Origin: Ectocarpus siliculosus
Taxonomy: Eukaryota; Sar; Phaeophyceae; Ectocarpales; Ectocarpaceae
Length of the DNA: 42,630 nt
Direction of reading: 5' to 3'
Assembly: GCA_000310025.1 (NCBI GenBank)
Contig: FN648792.1
Span: forward strand, 1 to 42,630
In this document: positions 15,761-36,925 of the stretch, one piece after another
Position numbering within the stretch: position 1 is the first letter of the stretch
Layout of the letters: every line of letters starts with the position of its first letter
Notes under the pieces: model-generated
What the model saw: the letters and a program-made list of their open reading frames with translations, nothing else
What the model was told of the DNA's origin: nothing
The model's database searches: none
Position numbers and translations under genes: made by a program

Positions 15761-18264
15761 ATGGCACAAACGAGGCCGCGGAGGGTGAGCCTCAAGAAGT
15801 TTCCTGGCTGCGGTTATGAGTGTAGTGCCTATGGCGCGTCGTTCAGCTCGTTGAAGAACGGTGGGGCGCACGTCGCGATATGTGGAGCGCCCTCAACGCC
15901 GCAGGCGCCACTACACCTAGTTCCGCCGCATCGCACGTCAGCGACGGCGGTGGTGGAGGGGACAGGGTTAGGAGGGACAGCGCTGATGGTGAGCACTCTA
16001 CAATCAGATGTAGTTGCGGGCTTATGTATTGCCTCGCGTGCGCACGACCCACTCGGTCGTCCTTGGGTGGTGTGGTGGTGAACCTCTCAAATCTCTGGCA
16101 ACAGTTGTTCGAATATCTCTCTGGGCTGCGATCTCTTGTGGGTAACAACACCCGTGGAGGCAGGTAGAGCAGGAGTCGGCACTATCCTCCCTCACGTATG
16201 CATACGAACACGGCAAGGCTTGATCACTGACGCTGGGATAGGTCTGGCGATTTGACGAAAACACGCACACGTCCCTCTCGGTTCGTTGGATTGTATAATT
16301 TAGTACCCTACCACTGCCGGGGAACACCGTCTTGCCTCGCAGCAATGACGCCGCGTTCACCCTCTTGTGCACCATTGCTCTTTTTATTCGAACGGGTCAC
16401 GCAATGTCTCGAAAGTCATACGTACTCCTACGTAGAACAAAGAAGCCGAGGCGATAGGCTTGAGGCCGATGCTGATGTTGTACGATATAGCCTCGCACGA
16501 TGCAGGGAGGGGGGGGTATTTAGCCGTTCGTCGCGTCGCTTCTAACAGTTGAGTCTTGCGTTCGAAGTGCGCTACAACTGCCATGTACCTCACATTTTTT
16601 TGCCATTTCACATGCATAGGTGTGCATGAGCACTCTCAATTCGAGGTTGGGGGGGGGGGGGGGCAGCCTCCGCGTCCTAAGCCCTTGAATTGTAATAGAA
16701 ATCGCGCGATGCGGTTCACTACGGCGGATGTGTGCTCTCGACCTCCCCGTCAACATCCTACACGAGATGCCGGAGTGTATGCAACACTATCGGCCTGTGG
16801 GGACGAGAGAGCGCGATGAACAACATCACCCACAGATTTCGAAGAATTTTCCGTTGCTGTATCGATCGCATGCTGCTGGTGAGCTCTGTCGATCTCGTGG
16901 TTGGCCCTCTTTCCCTTTTCCGTGGCACATCCTGGCCAAGTCGACTCGTGATTGTCTGTTGCTAACACAACTCGCTCCACTCGCCATTTGATATTCGCGA
17001 CACCAGGCGGCAGCGGTACGTGCGACGAAGGATTTGAGGGCAATGCCGGAGGTGACGACACCACGGGTGAAGCCGGCAGTGGAGCCGGTGATCCAGCGAG
17101 CGACGGGTCGGCGACGGTACCACTCTGGCTGGGACATTTGCACAAACTCATCGAGGAATACATGAACGCAGAGGTAGTCGACGGCGAAGATCTGAATTTT
17201 GCTGGTTTGGCGCTAGGCAGCCGCTTTTTTCCCTGGGCGAACCTCACCGAGATGCTCGTATCGGTATGGGCCATAGTCTGCAGGCCGTCAGGTGGAGTGC
17301 GAAAGGTCGCGTAGGCGGGGTCGAGGTCACGAAGGAGTTGACAGCTGGCCGTCTCTGCCGGGAAGTGCTTCAGGAGGTGTTCAAGATCTTGCCGTTGCAG
17401 ACGACTCCAGCAGCCTCGGAAGACGGCACGACGGGAAGAAGGGGGGGGCGGCCGCACGGTTACCAACAGTGGGATGCCGGGTTGGGTCCAACTCGGCTCG
17501 AGACCGGTCTGGACGCCCCGGCATGGCAGCAGGCGATATCGAAAACATTGCCATCCGCCGAGCAACTAGAAAAGCGCTACGACGATGCGCTTGGGTGTGG
17601 TAGGACCTCGCAGGAGGCGCCATGTAGTAGGCGGACGTGCCCTTTTTGCTGGAGGAACAGAGGCCAAGGGATCGTCCGTCAGACGGTCGTGGTGTTTAAC
17701 CATTGGGGCCAGGCTCCGGCGGAAGTCAGTGCTGGGATCGGCACCATCCGTGGCGGCCCGGTCAAAGACGCGGGTACCCCTACGTGGGTCCGGTCGGCGG
17801 CATCGCGTGGCAATGACGTCGAGATGTACCTCAAGGCCGAAGACCAGCGAGCTGGAAACCAAGGGCTAGGTCGCACGACTCTCGGGAAAGTGGCCTATTT
17901 TTTAGAGCACCAAGGCAACGACTGGAGACGAGGCGATAGCAGCAACGCCATTCCGGAGGGAGAATTCACCATTTGGGTGGCGGTGGTGGAGTATGTGACA
18001 GCAGGAGTTGGCAACAAGCGCAAGGTCGATCCGGTGACCGGTTTGGACATGCTTCGGATGCGCACGTCCCTTACGTTTTTCCCTGCCTCGGCCATCCGGT
18101 GCGTAGTGCATATGATGCATGCCTGTTCCACAACTGGGACATCCGCCCGCCGCCTGGTCGACGAGGGGAGCAAGCGGCCGGTGTGGCGGTGCAACCTGAC
18201 AGGAAACCCGAACTACCTCCTCAACAAGTACTTCCACAGTGTTCTGCGGGACTCCATCGCCTGA
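15761..18264 (+). CDS. Plus-strand gene or decayed gene with Cys-rich segments, function unknown
   Basis: Not recognised. A first segment from the ATG at about 15761 reads MAQTRPRRVSLKKFPGCGYE and contains a C-x3-C ... H-x3-C arrangement resembling a C2HC zinc finger. It then appears to change frame near 15850-15880 into WSALNAAGATTPSSAASHVS, which runs to a phase-1 donor (GTGAGC at 15989). The next exon starts at 17007 after ACACCAG with matching phase. It carries an acidic Gly-rich linker (DDTTGEAGSGAGDPASDG) and LWLGHLHKLIEEYMNAEVVD. A second frame change is needed around 17290-17325 to continue into EVTKELTAGRLCREVLQEVF and the rest, through CSRRTCPFCWRNRG and AIRCVVHMMHACSTTG, to NPNYLLNKYFHSVLRDSIA and the TGA at 18262-18264. 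The last open frame alone is 332 codons from an ATG at 17266. Two frame breaks suggest either sequence errors or a degenerate, possibly transposon-derived, copy. Confidence 0.5.
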
Positions 18265-22794: not shown

Positions 22795-25700
22795 ATGCGT
22801 GCCTACGCGTGTCTCGCGGCGCTGGCCGCCACGAAGGTGGCCGCGCACCCCCTCTGTTTCATCGACGACAAGCCGACTGACTATGACCAAGTTCTCACCT
22901 ACTGCGACAACTCCATCGCCATGTCCGGCGCTTGCTGCACGAACGAGGAAGAGGACATCGTGGAGGCCAACTTCAACGCCGCTTTTGGGGTAGGCGTGGT
23001 GCCCAGCACGGCGTGTGCTGCTCTCTACAAGCAGGTGGGTCAATCGTGATTTATTTTGTCGTATCAGAGGGTTTGTTTGCGAGCAGAGCGGTCGTACTTG
23101 ATATTATCTGTGGGTGAACATGGAATTGCCTCTTTTATTTTCCAGTGCGTTTGTTGGTGATGCGCACAACAGGCCCCTACAAGTACCCCCCCCGGCGGTT
23201 GTCACTCTCGCGCGTCCTCGTCTTGAGGACGGAGTCTGCCTCTTTGCTGTCGGGCTTTAGCGCTATGAATAAGATATGAGCGGAGGTTCAAAGAGTTGTG
23301 TTGGTGCCCGCCGGCAGATTTTCCTCTCTTTTTGCTTTTGGCCGGCGTGTGGCTGATCGGAGCTATATTTTTGAACTTCGTTGAGAGGAGAAGAGAACTT
23401 GACACCTCCGTTCGCTTTGTTCCGACGACACGATGATAGACAGCAGTGAACGGCACACGCGATCGTAGGTGCGCGTGCGCACAGCAATGACAGTCGTGCG
23501 TCCCGAGAGTGCAGCACAAGAACGTGACCTTGGTTTTTGCTGCCGTCTTTCCATGGGAATGGAGCGGGTCGGGGTATTGTTCGGTTGTTGCCCGCGCTAT
23601 CTAACGCGACCGAAATCCGACGAGAATAAAGGAAACAGAATGAGACCCAGCAGACAGACCAACAAACACATTATATTGCGTGCCGGCCACCCACCACGTG
23701 CTGCATCGTGCGCGTGGGCAGCGTGGGAGCAGCAGCAGCAGCAGCAGCCCTACTCCGCTTGCTGCTTATCTGCAAGCAGCCTGACACGTCAAAAAGAAAT
23801 GAAGAACGGGCACGGCGCCCCAACCGACAAAAATGAGAGGAGAAAAAACACAGAACAACGGCTGTCCACACGGCCACGGCCTATAATTTTTTCTTCTTGC
23901 CCTTGATAGTGTCCCGCAGGAGGATCCTGGCGTGCGCCATTCCGCGTGATAATACCCGTCACGCCAGGCCGGGCGGGTGCGCAGCAGCTGTTTACACTTT
24001 ATTGTCGGGTTAATAAGATGGACAAACTCCTACACCCGGCCGGCCCGGCCCCCGCCAGCGATTGCAGCAAGCTGCTGACTCACTAAATTTCCGTGAACAG
24101 ATTGTTTGCAACCAGCCACGAGACGCTTTCTTTCTCCTTTCCGGGCGGGGCGGCCGCTGGCCGGCCACAAATCTCGGGGAGCGGCTTGCGGAACGAATGA
24201 GGAAAGGCATGTCGCATGCAATGTGGGACGTGCACCCCATCGCGAGAAGCTCTAGCGCCGAGCTGACGATCCTGCTCTTTTACCGTCGCGGTCGGTGTTT
24301 ACTCTCATGTTTTAGTTTGTATTCCGTGTCTTCGCTTTGGTGGTTTTGTGAACCGACCCGAATATATTGAAGAATCGGATAAAACTACGCCGAGAAGAGC
24401 CTGACCACGAAACAGCCAGAGGGCAGCTGCTTGTTGTCCGTCCGGCGGTCTGTCGACGTTGTTGCTACCAAATTGCGGGCTGGCTCTCCCCCGGTTCTTC
24501 TGGAACACGGAAGAAAGAGCTTGCAAAGCTATACAAGGCGTGTTCTTTTGCCAAAATTTTCTAACGTCTTTCCTTGGCACCAACTGGGTTTGCAGCCTTT
24601 CGGGACGGACGTGAAGCGCGTCCGGTGTGTGTCAGCGCACGAACTGAGAGTTTCTCTCACGAGTTGTGCACTGCTGTCAATAATGTGTCCGCATACTACA
24701 CGCTCCCTACGGTTTGAAAAAGTCATTGTAGTCATCATCCCTTCCCTGTTGAGATGGGCGAGGGAGAGGTGAGGTTTCCTGACACGAACAGGACTCGGCC
24801 CTTCTTTCTGTGTAGCGCGCCCGTTAGATTCAGTCAAAACACAAGCGAGCAGTATTAAGGGGTGCGTGATTATCCCAGCACCACCACCGCAGAGAGTTCG
24901 AGGCAGTCTTCCCCATCCTTTCCTGGAATACAGTGATGAAGCCAGACAAAAAGTAATTTTTTTTCACATACCCCGACAACGACCACCGCGCGACAGCAAG
25001 AGAATCTCAACAGCTGGTACCACACGATTGCTGCGAATGCGGGATGATTGTCGAGGTGGTTGGTTGTGTCAGCAGCAAGTTGACGTAAATCGAACACAAA
25101 CCAGTGCGTGTCTCGGCGATCTTCCTCCTCTTGCTGTGGCAGCAACCAACCGTCGAGAGGCAGTCATCCGTTGCATCTATATACAGGTTGTTCATTACCG
25201 TATCGCACATCATCCGCAGCAGTATCGTCAAATCCCTGTAATTTATACCCTTTGTTGAGTTTGTGGAAGTCGTTGGTCGTCGGGTGAAGTCACACCGCCT
25301 GTGTTACCCCCGCCACGCCGAGTTAGCCTGTTCATGGTTATCATTCGCCTGAGTTGAAGCTTGAGCATTCCATTCGGGGTAAAATAGAACAAGCAGCCTT
25401 CGCAGGAAGGGCGAGATCCTCTCTCACGACGAAATTGCACCCAATATCGAAATATCTGCACGGCGCGTGGTTCGTTCGTCATACCTTCCTCGTAAGCATT
25501 CGTTGAAGAAGATGGTCGTTCGCATCTTCCTGCAAAGCAGTAGCTGAGTCTCCATCTTCTTTGCTTTTTTCGTCAACCCTCCTGGTGCTTGTACATTTCA
25601 CACTGACTCACGTCCTTCCACTGGTGATGATACACTGCTTCTGTGGCTTGGTCGCCTCGCTGTTTTGTCTTGGACGACCGGCCGGCTAACGGCGGGGATT

Positions 25701-25974
25701 GTGGGTGCGTGCGTTCGTACCGCGCGAAAAAATCACTCAACACAACCGAACCAGGTGGTGTGCGGAGTATGCCACTCGTACAGCGCCCACCTGTACGAGT
25801 ACCTGACGGACGGCGGCATGCTGGACGGGCTGACCATGAAGAGCGAGTTTTGCGAAGAGTTGGTCGACGAGTGCGCGGCGTACATCGAGTTCCCGACCTA
25901 CGACGGTACAAGCTACTGCGACCACCACACCGGTGGCGGGAACGACTTCTTCTGGTCTTACCCGTACGAGGAAC
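22795..25974 (+). other. Exons 1-2: signal peptide and folate-receptor-like Cys-rich domain
   Basis: Residues ~19-153 are rich in paired cysteines: [34 protein letters not shown] and [10 protein letters not shown], then [31 protein letters not shown] and SYCDHH. The spacing resembles the N-terminal folate-receptor-like domain of HHIP and HHIPL proteins (established family architecture). Intron 1 is 2,720 bp and I found no further exon in it. It carries a run of AGC triplets at about 23729-23748. Ligand-binding residues for folate were not assessed, and in HHIP relatives this domain is not known to need folate. Confidence 0.75.
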
Positions 25975-28900
25975 GTGAGTTCTTGGGGCCGGCTCGATCC
26001 AGGCCAACCTTTTTCCTATGTGTATGCTATTATTTTTCGGTGCGCTGTTTTAAGAAAAGTGTCTTGTCAAAGCTTTTCGCACCTCGAGGTGCCGTAGGAC
26101 GGGAGTCCATGGGGTCACTTCCACTCATCAACACACAAGTTTTTTTTTTGTTCGTAGAAAACATTTGTCTGCCTTCCTCTTCGAACGACCTCCCCGATTT
26201 ATCGTCTGGTCCTCACACTCCGTCGATCTGTTTGCATGAAACATCAGCGGAGATTTTCGAGCCCGGGCTTAACGAGGTTTTCCCCGACCTCGGCGACGGA
26301 GAACAGCCGGACGACACGGTTAGCGTCAGACAGGTGCGTGTTGGTGACGACTCTTCGGGACAAGGAACATACAGTCCCGGTCAGAGTCATTTCTTCAAGA
26401 TCGTCTCTGTCGCGCTGCACCCACAACACTGAAATGGGCGGTCAAATCTCACATTTTTCACATGTCGGCCTTTCGCGCGGCGTTTTATTGAGCGTGCCCC
26501 ACCCCCCCCCCCCCCCCCCCCCCCNNNNNNNNNNNNNNNNNNNNNNNNNNNNNNNNNNNNNNNNNNNNNNNNNNNNNNNNNNNNNNNNNNNNNNNNNNNN
26601 NNNNNNNNNNNNNNNNNNNNNNNNTGTTCCCCTTTCTTTTTAAAAACCCCCCCCGATTTTTTTTTGGGGCCCCCCCACCCCGGGATTTGTTTCCAAGAAA
26701 ACTCAGGGGGAATTTTTGGGCCCGGGTTTAAAGGGGTTTTTCCCCCCCTTGGGGGGGGGAAAACCCCGGGCCACCCGGTTTGGTTTAAAACGGGGGGGTT
26801 TGGGGGAGATTTTTTGGGGAAAAGAAAAAAACGTCCCGGTTAAAGTTCTTTTTTAAAAATTTTTTTTGGCCGGGCGCCCCCCCAACCCAAAAAAGGGGGG
26901 GAAAATTTCCCCTTTTTCCCCATTCGGCCTTTCCCGGGGGGTTTTTTTGGGGGGGCCCCCCCCCCCCCCCCCCCCCCCCCCGCTCCCCCGTGGCCGATAT
27001 TCCTCTTGTTTTTCCTTTTTGTTTGCCTCGGCCATACAGACCCCCGACGGCAGCCAGTGGTGGCTGTTGGGCATCGCGGGAGAAATCTACGCGGTGAGCA
27101 GCCAGATGTTCGTCTCGTATGACGACGTACGGTCGTGTTTGCCACCCTACCGTTTGGTTTTCTCACAGGGTGTTGTGGGTGGTGATGCGTGTCTTGTTCC
27201 GAGGGAATGATGCCTTGTGCATTGCTGAACCTTCTTCCCAAGTGAAAAAAGGATGTGTTTTTAAAAAGACAATTTGAAGTCTTCTAGGTTGTACATGCAA
27301 AAAAGGAGCAACGTTTGTGTGATTGTATTGGGTGCGGTTCTTTTGATTTCTTTGCCGGACACAGGTGGATTCCGACAACATGGATGACTCAGAACTGGTG
27401 ATCGACGTCTCCGGATCGGTTACTGGCGGCACCTTCTACGTGGACTACGAGGAGGTACGATGCGCGGGAACGGCATACTACTTTACACAAATGACTTCTC
27501 TGACGTTGTTTATGGGTCGGCTTGGAAGGCAGTTCCGACTTCGGTCGCCGAAATGCCAGTGACGTTCCACAGACCGTGAAACAATCAACATGTTAAGTGC
27601 TGCCGGTCGGTCCCACCTTGTATATCTGTTTTCCTGTTTTTTGCGCGTTTGTGCATGGACAGGGTCTGCTCGACGTAGCCTTCGGGCCTATGTTCAGCGA
27701 AAGCGGGTACCCGAACTACTTCTACGTGAGCTACACGGTCGACCTTAACGATGACGTGAGTGTCCTTGATGAAAGGCGGTGGTCTGATTTCTTGGGTTTG
27801 TTCTCCCATCTCGCCTGGTTGCGGTTTGTCGTCCCTGCTATGTTTGCGGTCCTGACCGTGTGTACATGATGCATGCATTTCAATATGCTGCTGCTGCGGG
27901 TTTGTAACGGGAAGGGCGTGGAAAGTGTTCGCCCAAAACTCGCTCTTCGGTGTGCTGTGTCGGGTCTCGTCCCACCTTAATTTCAATGCGTGGGTCGTGG
28001 TCGAGGAATCACCCCGTCTTTGTGTTTTTTTTTCGTTCTTCACTTCTTTCTCTTGTGCAGTTGATGCAACGCAACCGGCTTGCGAGGTTCACGTACATCC
28101 CGGGTGACCCGGAGGGCACCAAGGCTTCGGAAGAGGTCTTGCTCACCACCGTCCCCAAGTACAACAGCATCCACTCGGCCGGATGGCTCGGCTTCAAGCC
28201 GTCCGTGTACGGTAACGTGAGTTTTGGCGGCGTGCCGGTTTTTTGTTCCACCTATGGAGGAGACCCATGCGCGGCACGCGACGGCGGGTTTCTATCGAGA
28301 GGAAAATTCGAGCGAGTTTGAAACGCGGGTGACCGACGTACGTTTTTTGTGGCTTTTTCTGTGCTATTGTTTTACTGAAAAACGATTTTACTCTCACCAC
28401 ATTTGTTAATTGTTTGGTGTATCATTTTTTGTCCACAGTCCTCCCCCCAGGACCTCTACTGGACAACCGGCGACGGCGGGCCGCAAACTGACCCCGAGAA
28501 CCACAGCCAGGACACGCAGACCATGCTTGGCGCCATGATGCGTATTACTGTGCCTTCCGACGGCGATGGCTACACCATCCCCTCCGGCAACTATGGAGGT
28601 ATCGATCATCAGTCCGTCGATTTGCGTGTTTTCTTTTTTCTCCTGACGGCCTGTGGAGGCGTTGCAATGCAGTTTTCTTTTCGTCCCTCCCTCGTGTGTG
28701 TGTGTTGATTTTTTCTTCCTCGTCTTGTGGTCTAGGGATGGGTGTGTGGGGAAGTTCTCGTTTTCTCACACGACACGATATTATTGAAGTTTTTTGTTTT
28801 TCCTTTTTCTCACCAGCCGGTGTGTTCTTTCGTTGTTTAGCGTGGTGACGACAATGAATGAACCCACAATGATTTCGTCCACCACCAGGTGGTGCTTTGG

Positions 28901-31900
28901 ACGAGATCTGCGCGATCGGCTTCCGCAACCCGTGGCGGTGCAGCTTCGACCGCGAGAACGACAACCTCTACTGCGGTGACGTCGGACACACGTTTGTGGA
29001 GGAAATCGACCTTGTGGAGTGAGTTTTCCAGGGAGGAACTCTCTCATGCATGCCTACGGCAGCATGGAAGGCAGCGCGTCTCATAATGTTTGTGATGGAG
29101 GTTCGCGGCCTGGGGTCTTGCTTGGTTTCGACCTCGAGCTCTCGCACGCATGCAACACTCGTCTCGAATTGGGCCAAACTGTCCTTCAGGCCCGTGTTGT
29201 CTTTGGGCGACAAAAGTGTTAAAAGTGATCCAGCGCCCGTTGTTGTTTCCGATGATGGCACACACACACACACACAGGTGCGGCAACAACTACGGGTGGT
29301 CGAGATTCGAGGGCTCCCGCTGCCAGGAGGCCGTGGAGGACAACGAGTTCAACCCTGCCTGCGACGGTATCAGCCGCTCTGGCTTTACGTTCCCTCTCTA
29401 CGAGTACTGCCACCCCGACTACCAGTCAACCGGGGACGATGAGTTCACCGCTGGTAACGACATCTGCGGCGACCGCGTTCTTCTCGGTAACGCCGTTATC
29501 GGAGGTTACGTATACCGCGGTAACTACTTCTCGGACCTCCTGAACGGCGCCTACATCTTCGGAGACAGCACCATGAAGTGAGCATTGGGGCAGGTTGTGG
29601 CTCTTTTTGGTGTTGGCTTGGGCAAGGCTGTTGAATGAGCGGCTTACCGTTGAAGGTTGTGGTGACTTAGCTTTTTGTCCGCTCTCGGGTTGTTGGGTAC
29701 GTGTGCGTGCTAAGGACCCTTGGCAAGGATTTTGGATCCTCATCCTTGATTCTGTTTTGGCCGGTGCTCCTTCGATTTCGATGTTCAGGAACATCTACTA
29801 CCTCGTGGAGGAAGATGGCGGCTGGAGTCTCGGCACGATCATCAGCGACGCGAGCGTGCAGATCATCAGCTTCTCCGAGGACATCAACGTAAGAAGCGCA
29901 TAAAGACGTGCTGTCGTCTGCATGACCGCCCTGTATTCTACTATTATTTAATAGTCTTGTCTGCAAGCGTCAAGCAGTCTTTTTTTTTCCCGAATTTGCT
30001 TGGTGCAACCAGAGCAAGTGCCAATGCATGTGCCTCTTTCGGTTCACAACACGGCTGCTCCTACTGGACGGTTGGGTTGAGTTTGAAAGGCAATGAACCG
30101 GGACTTCTCGACGCCCTTTTTCATGTTTTTTTGCCTATTATCTCATGCGCATTGTTTAGTCCGTTTCCGCATCGTGCTGTGTGCTGAACGCCGCTACTGT
30201 AACTTTACCTGATCTGTCTTGGCTGGACAGGGTGAGATCGTGCTCCTCGACCTCCAGCACAACATCTACCACATGCCCTGCGGGGACCTGTGCGCCACGA
30301 CCTGCCTGGACCAGACCGAGGACCAGCCGACTTACGATGTACGTTCTTACACCTCGATGGTTGACGACCGGCTGTTTGGTTCAAAGGGGATTCCGGTTTC
30401 CCTCGACTCACTTACGGACTTCAAAGTGATTGTGTATTCATGTAGGTAGGATATATCTTCTTGAAAGTGATTCGGGCGTGTGTGCTCGTCATCGCTGTTG
30501 AGTTCTGCACAACTTGTTGTGCGCGTTGCTGACAATCCGTGATTTTTATTGGTGTTGGATGGGAAGGCTCTGTTGGTGGGTTGACCCTTCCCGTCCGTCC
30601 CGTAAAAGCCTGCGAACAGTGACGCGAACGTTTTTCTCTTCCGAGCAACAATCAAAAACCAACCTTTCGCGCCCCTTTCCTCCACACGGTCGACAGTCCG
30701 TGGGTTGCTTCGCCGACGAGGTTGACGACCGCGCGCTGCCCGACCAAGCCGACAACTGTGGCGAGGGCGAGACGGCCATGAGCCCCTCGGTAAGTTGGTT
30801 GCGACAGCAGCGTGTGACGCCAGGTTAACCATTATTATTGTTTTTGGTGTAACAAAAAATCGCGCCGCATGGACGACGAAAATTCCCTAAAATTCCCAGG
30901 TGCTGTTACCCAGACTGTGGCTTTTTTTCGACCTTGACCGCCACGCTCGTTCTCTTAACGATGGGTTCGCCGTCCCTGTGCGTTTCTGTTGCCTCTTCAT
31001 TTCTTCTTGGCGCAGATCTGCGCCTCGTACTGCGAGACTCAGGGCGCGACCTATTTCGGCGTTGAGTTTTCGTACGAGGTAAGTGAGGCTGATGTCCGAT
31101 ACAGCCACGTTTACCATCGCTCGCAGATCTAGCCAGCATGTACCGCATTTCGTTGACTACAAGTACATCCCCGAGCTGTCGTGGTTCGTTTACTTCCCGA
31201 TGATGTAGTGTGTGGCGCAACTGTAGCGCATTATTTGGTGTCGAGCTTGACATTGACGTTGACGAAACCCCCCCGCTTTGTTTATCTTGACGTCTGGCCT
31301 CTCTCGGTCCTGTTCCGTCGCGGTCTCCGTTGTTGTGGACTCCTGCTTGACGCTTCGGTCTTTACCCCGACCTAGTGCTTCTGCGGCTCTTCCACCGCCG
31401 ACTTCGACAAGCACGGATCGTTGCCCGACTCGGAATGCGAATACCTGTGCGATGTAAGTGTGGGATGGAGCGATAAAGACCCGCTGAAGGACCCGTAGTC
31501 TGGTATGAGCACGAGGCGTCGGTTTGTTCCATCACGTGTGGTTTTCTCGGCCTACATATTTTGGCTCGGGGAGCGTTCATTTCTAAGATTGTTGTCATGT
31601 TGGTTGATGCCTGAACTAACATTTCCGTTTTCACGTCCCTCTTTTTCAGGCTAACCCGGACCAGTTCTGCGGTGGATTTGGTGCGATTGAGGTGAGGTTC
31701 ACGCCCAACACCTCCGTTTTCAAATGCAACACATGGGTGTGGTGATGTGGTGTATGGTGTCTACCTGACGCGTAGCGTTGTACGGATTTCACCGAGGAGT
31801 GACGGTACCCGTTTTGGGACTTGACTCTACTCCCTGCCGGCGGGCGTACCAGATGTTCGAGGTGTTGAGCAATTCGTTCTGTTGTAATAAGCGCAAGAAA

Positions 31901-34900
31901 AACTCGCCAGACGCCCACTCCCATTTCGTATTTTCGCTATTGTGCTGATTTTTGTATTTAGGCCTTGACGATTGGGCCATTCCTTCCGTCCCTCTCTTCC
32001 TTGCCTTTATCTTGACCGTTACCCCGCCTCCCACCCGTTGATGATCAGGTCTTCACGATCGAAGCCCCGGCTGAAACCGAGGCTCCCGCGACCTCTCCTC
32101 TCGTGGCCCAGCCTATCGAGCCCATCGCCCCCTCTCCCACAACCCCCACAACTCCTACCCCATCGGACGCCAGCTACCTTGGCTGCTTCGGAGACGCCGA
32201 TGACCGCGTGTTCCCGGAGTCCACGTCGTCTTCCTCAATGACCACTGCGGTGAGAGACAAGAGAGCGTGCGTGTCTTGTCGACGGCTGGTGGCGATCGGA
32301 ACGTGATGACTGCTGAGCGGACGGACATGCTCCCTTTTTTTATTGCCCTCTTGCTTGTCAGGCCGCCTGTCATTTGTGTTCGTGTGTGTGTGTTTCGTGT
32401 TTGGAAGGGCGTTTTTTCGTCCTGCACGCTGACATTGTTGCTCCTGTTCCCTTCTACCCCCTTCCCTGCCCCCTGTTGCGGACATGAACAGACGTGCGCG
32501 GCGTTCTGCTCCGACTACGCCTACTACGCTACTCAGTACGGAGTAGAGGTGAGGGAGACAGACTTCCAAGCATTCCTGGTGTTGCTTGATTGTTGAGGAC
32601 GTCATGGGTGGAAACTATTGCGTGGAGTTTCTACTTTTTTTAACAAACTTGAAGAAGCACGCGTGCCTGCGCCCGGACATTCAAAGTACTGTTATTTTCG
32701 GCCCTGACCTTCCCATGAACCGATACACACTTACACATGCTGTCCCGTGTTTCTTTGTTGGTGCCCTCCTACATCATGACAGTGCTGGTGCGGCAACAAC
32801 GACGCCTACGACATTTACGGTGTTGCTGACTGCGACATAGCATGCTCTGGTGATGCCAGCGACATCTGCGGCGGGGACTTCGCCATGTCGGTGCGTGAGC
32901 GCTGTTATCCGTCCACCTGCATATCGTTGCATCACAAAACGGGTTCCACAGAGTCTGCGCGACCTCTGCCTAGACTCTCTTGACGTATTTTCGCGTAGGC
33001 TGCCAAGTGTGGTTTGGGTGTAAGATAGAATCGGCGGCGATGTTGGGCATCGGTTTTATTCATTCTGTTCCGCGTCTCTGCTCCGCCTGTTGCAGGTGTA
33101 CTCGACTGGCTCCGAGCCCGTGGAGACGCCGACGCCCGTGGACGTGGTCGATCCTACCGACCCCACTTACCTTGGCTGCTTCGGCGACTCGCAAACTGAA
33201 CGCGTCTTCCCGGTCACCACCGACTCCGGCTCCATGACCACTGCGGTAAGCAAACGAGTGTTGTCTCTGCCCCCCCCCTCCTCGACCGGATGGCCGTTGA
33301 GAACGTAGCAACCCGACCTGGGTGTTTGGATGTGAAATCATCAGAAGAGATGGGAAGGGAACGGCGTCGACGCATATCGACTTGCGATGGATGATGTTTT
33401 GCCCGTTATGCCTGCTCCTAACCTCTGGTGCCTGGTCCGCTTGTCGCCTTTGTCGAACACGACGCGACGCTATCGCCGATAATTCGAAACAACGCAGTTC
33501 TGCGCCGCCTTCTGCGCTGACTACGCCTACTACGGAACCCAGTACGGTGAAGAGGTGAGTTTAGACTTGGACGCGAGCCATTGTTGGCAGTTCAGGGTTA
33601 CCGTACCGGTTTGTTGTGACTTGGAAAGACAGCCGTTTAGTGGTGTACGTGCCATGTTCGGACGTAGTGGGCGATGGAACGGAGAATCTGCTCCCGAGGT
33701 GGGGAACGGTGATAGATGGTCGTGAAACGAGGCTTCGGCTGCCGAGGATGTAGGAGGCGAAGCGATGGCTTCGGACGAAGTCTCAGGTCGTCAGCTTGAA
33801 CGCGGTTCATGGCGTTACATCAAAACCTCGTCGGCTCATGTAGTAATGACGCCCGTTACCCATTGTTCATTCTGATGTAGCCAACGCGGTTCCTTACCCT
33901 TGCAATGTCTTGTGTAGTCATGCTGACAACGCCATCCCCGACCCTTGAAACCGCAGTGCTGGTGCGGCAACAACTCCGCGTACGACACCAACGGTGCGGC
34001 AACTTGCGACATGGCGTGCTCTGGTGATGCCGATGAGATCTGCGGAGGCTTCGACGCCATGTCGGTGCGTAAGCACAGCCATTAACTGCTGTGCGTCTCG
34101 ATGGTCCGTTGGTGGAGGTCTTGCGTGTGCTGCAGCAGAGCTGCGTTGTTCAATCACTCATGTTTTTGAACTTTGTCCTCGGCAGTGCCTAGCATACTTC
34201 CGCCTGTCTTGTCGGTTGTTGTCGCGTAGGGTAGGATTTTTTTTTTTTTACGTTTCGGGAAGCGCCTCACATCCATCTGTTGCATTCCCCATCTAACCAA
34301 TCCTCTTTTGGTGGGTCTCGTCCTCGCTCTCCGCCGCCGCAGATCTACTCGACCGGCTCCGACCCCGTCGAGACCCCGACGCCGGTGGACGTGGTGGAGA
34401 CGCCGACGCCCGTGGACGTGGTGGAGACCCCGACCCCTGTGGACGTGGTCGATCCCGCCGACCCCACGTTCCTCGGATGCTTCGGCGACTCGCAAACTGA
34501 ACGCGTCTTCCCGGTCACGACCGCCTCCGGCTCCATGACCACTGCGGTGAGCAGAAGCGTGTTTTGGGTGGCCTCGCCCGACTGGATGGCCGTTAAGAAC
34601 GTAGCAACCCGACGTGGGTGTTTCGGTATGATGGCGTAAGAATGGCGAAAGGGTTGGCTGCTTGCTCTTCTCCTTTACGACCGTTAGTCGTGGTGACATT
34701 CGGTGGTTGATGTCTCCTTAGTTGACGGCTTTCACGCATATCGACTGGCGATGGATGATCGTTCGCCCGTTCTGCCTGCTCCTAACCTCTGGTGCATGCT
34801 GCGGTTGTCGCCTCCGTCGAACACAACGCGACGTTATCATCGATGTTACAAAAAACAACGCAGGCCTGCGCCAGCTTCTGCTCTGACTACGCCTACTACG

Positions 34901-36925
34901 GAACGCAGTACGGTGAAGAGGTCAGTTTAGACGTTAGCGAGCCCTTGTTGCAGTGCACGTTTGCCGTACCTTGGAGACCCAGTCATTGTAAATGGTGTCG
35001 TACGTGCCTTTTTCGGAAGTAGGTGGGCGATGGATGGAGAATCCGTTCCCGGTGCAGAAAACGGCGATACGTAGTCGTGAAACGATCTCAAGGCTTTGCC
35101 TGCCGAGTATGGGAGAAGAAGCAACGGCTTTGGACGAAGTCTTGTGTTGTCCGCTTGAAAGCGGTTCATGGCGTCACGTGAAAACCGCTGCGTCTCTCGT
35201 AGTAGTGACCGTGGTTGTACCCATCGCTCGTGCTGACCTTTGAAAATGCAGTGCTGGTGCGGCAACTCCGGGTACGACACCTACGGTGCGGCAACTTGCG
35301 ACATGGCGTGCTCTGGTGATGCCGATGAGATCTGCGGAGGCTTCGACGCCATGTCGGTGCGTAAGCACAAATAGTAACTGCCGTACGTCTCGTTTGGCGT
35401 AGGGCTAGTGGTGGGGGTCTTGTGTGTCCTGCTACAACGTGCGCTGTGCACAGCATCGACGAAGGGCTTCAACTGTCTGTTTTTTTAATTGTTCAACCAA
35501 AAGTGCTGTCTACTCCCAACAACTACCGCGTGCTCCGCATCAGCCAGTGCCGACCACTCCGCCGCGCACTCCGTCGTTCGGCTTTGCACGTCCGAGAGTA
35601 ATTCCCCCCCCCCCCCCCCCCTCCCCTCATGTGCTCACGTTTGCTCGGTAACAACCCCTGCCACCGTAGATCTACTCGAACGAAAACGTTGACCCCGTGG
35701 AAGAACCGACCACCGGCGACGGTTACACCAACCTGGGGTGCTGGAGCGACCCCCAGGACTCTAGGATGATGGTGGAGACCGCATTCGATTCCAACATGAC
35801 CACCGCGGTAAGCGGGTGGATAATTAATTTGTAGACTTGTGGCGTGGACGACTGAATTCGTGGGTTTGGTTCCGTATTAAGAGGGGTTTTGGCCGAAGGA
35901 TGGTACTTTGGTGTTGAGCAAGCGCCATGCGTGTGGTGTGTTGGGCATTGTAGCGATGGTACCCAGCCGATGATGCAATAGGTGCTTTTGACGTTGCTGC
36001 CCTCATGTCGAATACACAAGCAGGCCAACTGACTTCCCCCACCCCGACGATCGTTCGTTACCCCGCCCCACTCGCGAGCAGATGTGCGAGGAGTTGTGCG
36101 ATGGCTCTACGTACTACGGAACGCAGTACGCGTACGAGGTGTGTGTAACACACTTTTTTTTTGTTATTTTGTGCGTGTTGTGCGTAGGGTTATTTTTCAT
36201 GGCCGGTTGACAAATGAAAAGACGTCGGTGTTGGGTGTTTGAGCATGAGCCGTGTGCCGCTTCCGGTTGGTCGGATGTGATGATTTGCGCGCTCTCGCTT
36301 TCGGCGAAATAACAGTAGAATTTCCCACCGCGCAGGGCCGTGTACATGGCGCACGGAACCATCGGGGATTCTGCGCTTGCTGACCCTCGCATCATCTGCT
36401 GCTGCTCTGTTTGATTTTTTTTTCGTGCGCGTGGTCGCTGTTTTGGTGCATCGAATGGCGTGAATGGTGTCTTTTGTTGTTATTTGATGGCAGTGCTGGT
36501 GCGGAACCGCCGATACCGATTACCAAGCTGACGGGCCCGCTACCTGCGACGCCGAATGCGGTGGCGACCCTGACGACATATGCGGTGGCACTGACGCCAT
36601 GACGGTGAGCGCATGTAGGCAGCAAAGAGGCTGAATCGTCGATTGTCTGCACGTACCGTGCCGCGCGCCACGCGCACTTGGTTGCACCCACCCGTATCTT
36701 GTTTAGTGATATTTTTTCCGGATCATGTTGACGTTTTTACTACGCAAGAAGTGAGCCTCTGACTTGGCTGTACGCTTTCCGACACGTGACGATATCTGTT
36801 TACTATGCCAAAGGTGTCGTTGCTTGCTTGTTACTAATGTAGTAAACCCGCTATCCACGATCTCAACCCCTCCCCCCGCTCATTCCCTGCAATGCCGCCC
36901 ATCCCAGGTTTACGGCCCTGAGTAA
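22795..36925 (+). CDS. Secreted HHIP-like protein: folate-receptor-like + GSDH propeller + five WSC domains (29 exons)
   Basis: Coding exons are: 22795-23034, 25755-25974, 26158-26333, 27040-27126, 27365-27454, 27663-27755, 28061-28216, 28439-28598, 28889-29018, 29278-29577, 29789-29888, 30231-30338, 30697-30789, 31016-31078, 31376-31453, 31650-31691, 32049-32249, 32492-32548, 32783-32890, 33096-33245, 33498-33554, 33957-34064, 34343-34546, 34864-34920, 35252-35356, 35670-35807, 36082-36138, 36494-36604 and 36908-36925. All junctions are GT-AG with matching phases, giving about 1,168 residues. Order: signal peptide ([19 protein letters not shown]); Cys-rich folate-receptor-like domain (to ~180); propeller (~185-620), with [33 protein letters not shown] and [20 protein letters not shown]; then WSC domains at about 622-712, 755-834, 858-939, 983-1061 and 1082-1163. 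There is no C-terminal membrane segment, so it is probably secreted to the wall or matrix. The substrate is unknown. Exon 4 could instead end at 27093 (GTGAGC donor, same phase). Confidence 0.88.
26525..26624. other. Assembly gap (100 N)
   Basis: A run of exactly 100 N, the conventional placeholder for a gap of unknown size. It follows a long poly-C run (from about 26505) inside intron 3 of the main gene. The sequence after it re-states the sequence before it, so the gap is probably artificial. Confidence 0.97.
26625..26990 (+). other. Homopolymer-smeared duplicate of 26166-26524 (assembly artefact)
   Basis: This stretch consists almost wholly of homopolymer runs, yet aligns base for base with 26166-26524 at an offset of 459-460. 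For example, GATTTATCG at 26196 becomes GATTTTTTT at 26655; GCCCGGGCTTAA at 26261 becomes GCCCGGGTTTAA at 26720; CATGTCGGCCTTTCGCG at 26461 becomes CATTCGGCCTTTCCCG at 26921. Both copies end in poly-C. It is best explained as a poor-quality read end kept by the assembler. It includes a ghost of exon 3 at about 26625-26793, which should not be annotated. Confidence 0.9.
34370..34450 (+). repeat. 27-bp in-frame coding repeat (ETPTPVDVV x3)
   Basis: Exon 23 holds three consecutive copies of a 27-bp unit, GAGAC(C/G)CCGACGCC... encoding ETPTPVDVV. The equivalent linker in exon 20 has a single copy. The repeat lengthens the linker before WSC domain 4 by 18 residues and is likely to vary between strains. 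Confidence 0.9.
35599..35622. repeat. Poly-C run in intron 25
   Basis: A run of about 19-20 C lies in the intron before exon 26. It resembles the poly-C run that precedes the assembly break in intron 3, although here the assembly continues cleanly. Confidence 0.85.
36908..36925 (+). other. Terminal coding exon, five codons (VYGPE) and stop
   Basis: A C-rich tract ending CCCATCCCAG leads to GTT TAC GGC CCT GAG TAA. The other exons that follow a WSC domain begin VY or IY ([22 protein letters not shown]) or VF, so VYGPE fits the pattern and truncates it. The intron from 36605 is in phase 0. An alternative last exon at 37453-37497 (VEVVFALAAERRQA) has a similar acceptor but does not match the repeat pattern. 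Confidence 0.65.

Follow-up and report, generated by a model that had tools for sequence, protein, structure and literature searches.

A gene on the forward strand of Ectocarpus siliculosus contig FN648792.1 (22,795–36,925 of the window, i.e. the whole stretch of 42,630 nucleotides analysed) is predicted to encode a protein in which a Cys-rich domain and a GSDH-type propeller are followed by five WSC domains. Judging from sequence comparison, this gene and its relatives form a small brown algal family of apparently secreted proteins in which the two-part core of hedgehog-interacting protein (HHIP) ends in WSC domains, which are thought to bind sugars. This hints at an old eukaryotic module linked to the algal cell wall, and the protein is tentatively read here as a secreted, wall-bound binding protein, a role that we regard as quite possible.

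Gene structure

A single open frame, from the ATG at 22,795 to the TAA at 36,925, passes through all 29 predicted exons (28 introns, all GT-AG), bearing out the extent given to the gene in the preliminary description; all features below lie on the forward strand. Exon 1 (22,795–23,034) encodes a signal-peptide-like start (aa 1–17) and the beginning of the Cys-rich domain (HPLC...), the remainder of which, HHIP-N-like, lies in exon 2 (25,755–25,974). The propeller begins in exon 3 (26,248–26,333) and continues as a GSDH/HHIP-type propeller through exons 4–12 (27,040–30,338). The start of exon 3, at 26,158 in the first model, was moved to 26,248 because the acceptor lies at the same place in the three paralogues examined (C30c, C30a and C2). 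On this comparison 26,158–26,247 was dropped as coding sequence, and the predicted protein is therefore 1,127 aa long. Spliced alignment of the protein of the first model back to the window returned identical exons, a test of the aligner rather than of the gene.

In the intron after exon 3, a run of N is followed by a second version of the exon 3 region, rich in homopolymers (26,625–26,985; local alignment score 279, best of 50 shuffles 104), and 26,622–26,780 gives a 43% protein match. This copy was rejected as a second exon and read as a sequence artefact, a garbled duplicate of the exon 3 region; it is easily mistaken for an exon, which calls for caution in annotating this assembly. Four of the 16 long open frames listed were without a Pfam match at E up to 0.01; the same holds for the open frame of 390 aa at 17,092–18,264 of the window.

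Measured over 19 residues, hydrophobicity of the protein peaks at residue 5 (1.64); beyond the start its highest value is 1.34, at residue 68 inside the Cys-rich domain, and no later segment equals the first. The signal-peptide-like start is in keeping with the secreted half of an earlier proposal, that of a secreted enzyme or receptor-like protein, the enzyme half of which is taken up with the propeller.

Cys-rich domain

The N-terminal domain had been called folate-receptor-like. A Cys-rich domain is indeed present, but the Pfam model Folate_rec (PF03024) scores 20.9 bits on the N-terminal 167 aa, under its cut-off of 29.8, and is absent from the Pfam matches of the whole protein at E up to 1, and HHIP-N is a nearer PDB match than folate receptors. 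Of five paralogue Cys-rich domains, three are matched by Folate_rec (E up to 1; lowest E 6.3e-7). The model scores 26.5 bits for C2 and 29.8 as printed for C41b (cut-off 29.8), and gives no match at E up to 0.1 on those of C30a and C30c. When a profile of five Cys-rich domains was compared with PDB, the N-terminal domain of HHIP was the sole match under E 1 (E = 4.2e-4); the domain of one paralogue, searched alone, found HHIP-N first (E = 0.0037), followed by riboflavin-binding protein (0.17).

Ten Cys are kept in all five Cys-rich domains. For HHIP-N, the available text of PMC8660895 gives six disulphides (39–78, 69–112, 79–115, 103–152, 141–179 and 145–168). In the profile alignment, six Cys of the algal domains pair with Cys 103, 112, 115, 145, 152 and 168 of HHIP (HHIP numbers assigned by spacing), and Cys 141, numbered in the same way, has no algal Cys partner. 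The alignment does not extend to Cys 179, nor to the four most N-terminal algal Cys; these four may be equivalent to HHIP 39, 69, 78 and 79, as their order, an adjacent pair and the total suggest. If this assignment is right, five of the HHIP-N disulphides would persist, and the sixth would be missing as a pair.

The algal domain contains 24 D+E versus 3 K+R. Glycosaminoglycan contacts of HHIP are made by basic residues, according to the available text of PMC8660895; with so few of these, binding of sulphated fucan or glycosaminoglycan in the HHIP style is therefore unlikely, a point against the reading as a wall-bound binding protein.

Propeller

A GSDH propeller after the Cys-rich domain, as previously predicted, is confirmed by Pfam (PF07995, cut-off 25), the first model scoring 75.5 bits and residues 1–676 of the corrected protein 77.0 bits. 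A six-row propeller profile found HHIP first in PDB (E = 8.8e-20), with soluble glucose dehydrogenase behind (3.3e-10). The HHIP-like architecture proposed for this gene thus holds at the level of profiles, those of both halves finding HHIP first; 609 residues of the window protein, searched alone, did not find HHIP in PDB at E up to 1. Asp383 of HHIP, whose position and role in the Hedgehog-binding loop we take as given, falls on Gln in the propeller profile alignment, where a shift by one residue is possible.

The propeller also bears on a rival reading, which we consider doubtful: a secreted GSDH-type oxidoreductase acting on a sugar or polysaccharide, with the WSC domains delivering it to this substrate. 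Besides the GSDH score, this reading draws on NCBIfam TIGR03606, which matches all six propeller rows (E up to 0.01; window row 50.8 bits versus a cut-off of 434.55), and on two examined plasmid relatives that carry the annotation PQQ-dependent sugar dehydrogenase. Moreover, an RNP motif and a His at the aligned catalytic place, which we take to be the catalytic histidine of sugar dehydrogenases, are kept in the three aligned algal rows, and the kept His counts against a binding protein. The RxRD motif, which binds PQQ in soluble glucose dehydrogenase, is however missing at the aligned place in all three algal rows (sequence alignment), and the RxRD pattern is also missing from the best frames of all 80 bacterial loci described below, the pattern having had no positive control in either case. 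The enzyme of the earlier proposal is conceivable but not favoured, a wall-bound secreted binding protein being a likelier role than a PQQ enzyme.

WSC domains

All five WSC domains of the preliminary description were recovered by Pfam (PF01822; five stretches, 240.1 bits, cut-off 27.8, first model); no EGF family is among the protein's Pfam matches at E up to 1, its C-terminal part being WSC. WSC 1 (9 Cys) is encoded by exons 13–16 (30,697–31,691), and the other four, with 8 Cys each, by exons 17–19 (32,049–32,890; Pro/Thr linker and WSC 2), exons 20–22 (33,096–34,064; WSC 3), exons 23–25 (34,343–35,356; linker and WSC 4) and exons 26–28 (35,670–36,604; WSC 5), before exon 29 (36,908–36,925) supplies the final codons and the stop. 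The WSC 4 unit duplicates the WSC 3 unit, introns included, in a tandem duplication of ~1.3 kb (33,096–35,670; dS 0.16). Exons 13–28 begin in phase 0, so that gain and loss of WSC domains is easy, and their number may shift whenever such a unit, three exons in phase 0, is duplicated. Within the linker leading to WSC 4 (34,343–34,546) lie three in-frame 27-base repeats, and paralogue C30a has its own repeated Pro-rich linker.

WSC exons are abundant in the genome: 150 of the 244 candidates were scored, and at least 141 match at E up to 0.1. By manual tally, 74 of the 141 begin at model position 44–49, which we read as the start of the third exon of the WSC unit in the window gene. Clusters of WSC exons on contigs C10, C21, C139 and C244 resemble long WSC arrays.

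Paralogues and genome searches

Residues 1–609 of the first model, searched against the genome (E up to 10), gave 62 matches, 13 of them on the gene's own contig, one weak match on C12 (E = 0.81) and the rest on C30, C2 and C41. Six more loci were obtained by spliced alignment with the window protein as guide (C30a, C30b, C30c, C2, C41a and C41b), carrying five WSC domains in C30a, three in C41b, one in C2 and at least two whole ones in C30b; C30c and C41a are readable only as far as the propeller. Two further places on C30 match the first 109 residues only and were left out of the locus count; one of these precedes C30b on its strand and may be the start of that locus.

The junction between propeller and WSC domains falls at an intron, as would also be the case for two adjacent genes, one HHIP-like and one WSC, misread as one. 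We regard this as very improbable: the reading frame is continuous across the junction, and the propeller runs into WSC 1 in all four loci readable there (C30a, C30b, C2 and C41b; models guided by the window protein). Compared with the window gene, dN/dS is 0.290 for C30a, 0.269 for C30b, 0.211 for C30c, 0.205 for C2, 0.343 for C41b and 0.423 for C41a, calculated on the first gene model in windows of at least 40% local identity, a choice that lowers dN. Since the paralogues keep the domain order with dN/dS of 0.21–0.42, the architecture goes beyond chance.

The same values, together with 39 invariant columns across the five Cys-rich domains, argue against an acidic wall protein that serves a structural purpose or holds calcium, its head no longer having specific ligands. 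Such a protein would fit the very acidic composition (194 D+E versus 28 K+R across 1,127 aa; paralogue pieces likewise acidic), and is in our judgement unlikely.

Searched exon by exon against the genome, the HH_signal model (PF01085) gave no matches, in a search that had no positive control and of a type that misses known genes. The GSDH model gave none either, though the GSDH gene of the window is present, and exon-wise misses therefore mean little. Expansion of EsV_1_7, a Cys-rich motif, is a mark of brown algae, and this model (PF19114) had at least 150 genomic matches over its cut-off on many contigs (every one scored), from 880 candidates. Together with the plentiful WSC exons, this makes the genome look brown algal, in keeping with the alga proposed earlier.

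Bacterial relatives and origin of the core

Relatives of the propeller were confirmed in 308 of 403 candidate bacterial stretches; 80 of the 308 were kept, and these show 32–42% identity in their best segment. Because CGNNYGW and G[FL]RNPWRC were the patterns that found these 80 loci, any tally of either motif among them is biased. None of the 80 has a Cys-rich or WSC domain according to profiles made in this analysis and run without a positive control. Among plasmids, 64 of 72,556 records match the propeller (~33% for the best listed), and viral contigs searched with a 193-residue piece gave two pattern matches, none of them confirmed.

A tree of 83 rows (79 bacterial, three algal and HHIP; L095, under 250 aa, left out) united the three algal propellers in one clade (support 100/100) and left HHIP unplaced, on an end branch of 2.43 with support 93/64. 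Forcing HHIP together with the algal rows changed the likelihood by +4.1 (AU p = 0.591), and such a clade is neither shown nor rejected.

Plant HIPL proteins presumably share the two-part core, a Cys-rich domain plus a propeller, and lack WSC domains. The names HIPL1 and HIPL2 occur in rice and Arabidopsis: hedgehog-interacting protein-like proteins are described for rice in the available text of PMC9645239, and HIPL2 is named for Arabidopsis in that of PMC5387099. Because of these, the two-part core seems not to be confined to animals nor, as far as names tell, to have been invented by them. The preliminary description had likened the domain order to that of animal HHIP/HHIPL proteins, and the HHIP-like order remains, while its restriction to animals seems not to. 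The further suggestion, that the gene may bear on where the HHIP-like module came from, is supported only in part, given similar propellers in many bacteria, the plant HIPL names and an unplaced HHIP.

Proposed role

As a secreted, wall-bound binding protein, the algal protein would be held to wall glucans by its five WSC domains through many weak contacts, with the Cys-rich domain and propeller forming a two-part head that may bind a ligand of the wall space, either a small molecule or a protein, in the manner of HHIP with a different ligand. HHIP sequesters its ligand and also binds glycosaminoglycans, as described in the available text of PMC8660895. By analogy, two enzymes of fungi, each carrying a single WSC domain, which in the available text of PMC13094651 bound none of six polysaccharides including laminarin, would count against wall binding; an array of five WSC domains may bind where a single one fails.

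In a wider and rather improbable version, the HHIP core would be an ancient eukaryotic head for trapping ligands, with a C-terminal holder swapped from lineage to lineage: EGF repeats in vertebrate HHIP, wall-binding WSC arrays in brown algae. Tethered to the wall, the algal proteins would act as decoys for an extracellular signal in brown algal development. If it is true that the two-part core is common to lineages thought Hedgehog-free, Hedgehog binding was not its original job; brown algae, having become multicellular independently, would be a place to look for that job. A literature search, which left most subscription papers outside its reach, found nothing joining HHIP-like and WSC domains, and earlier publication is possible; within the same reach, the related literature listed did not use the terms 'sorbosone dehydrogenase' or 'hedgehog-interacting'.

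Comparison with known systems

Vertebrate HHIP has the same order of Cys-rich domain and propeller, and both algal profiles match it best in PDB. Six Cys of HHIP-N align with the algal Cys-rich domain, which differs in having no Cys partner for Cys 141 and in being poor in basic residues. HHIP ends in two EGF repeats, according to the available text of PMC8660895, where the algal protein instead has five WSC domains. Likeness to plant HIPL1/HIPL2 is by name (available text of PMC9645239 and PMC5387099), the comparison covering names and presumed make-up only. Bacterial GSDH-family proteins with RNPWRC, itself part of the search pattern, have propeller motifs in common with the algal protein, e.g. 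GGYVYRG, but unlike it they have a Cys-rich or WSC domain in 0 of the 80 loci. Fusion of WSC to another domain is already known in brown algae from the available text of PMC12879055: PR-1 proteins with WSC likewise join a secreted domain to WSC, with a partner domain different from the HHIP-like head.
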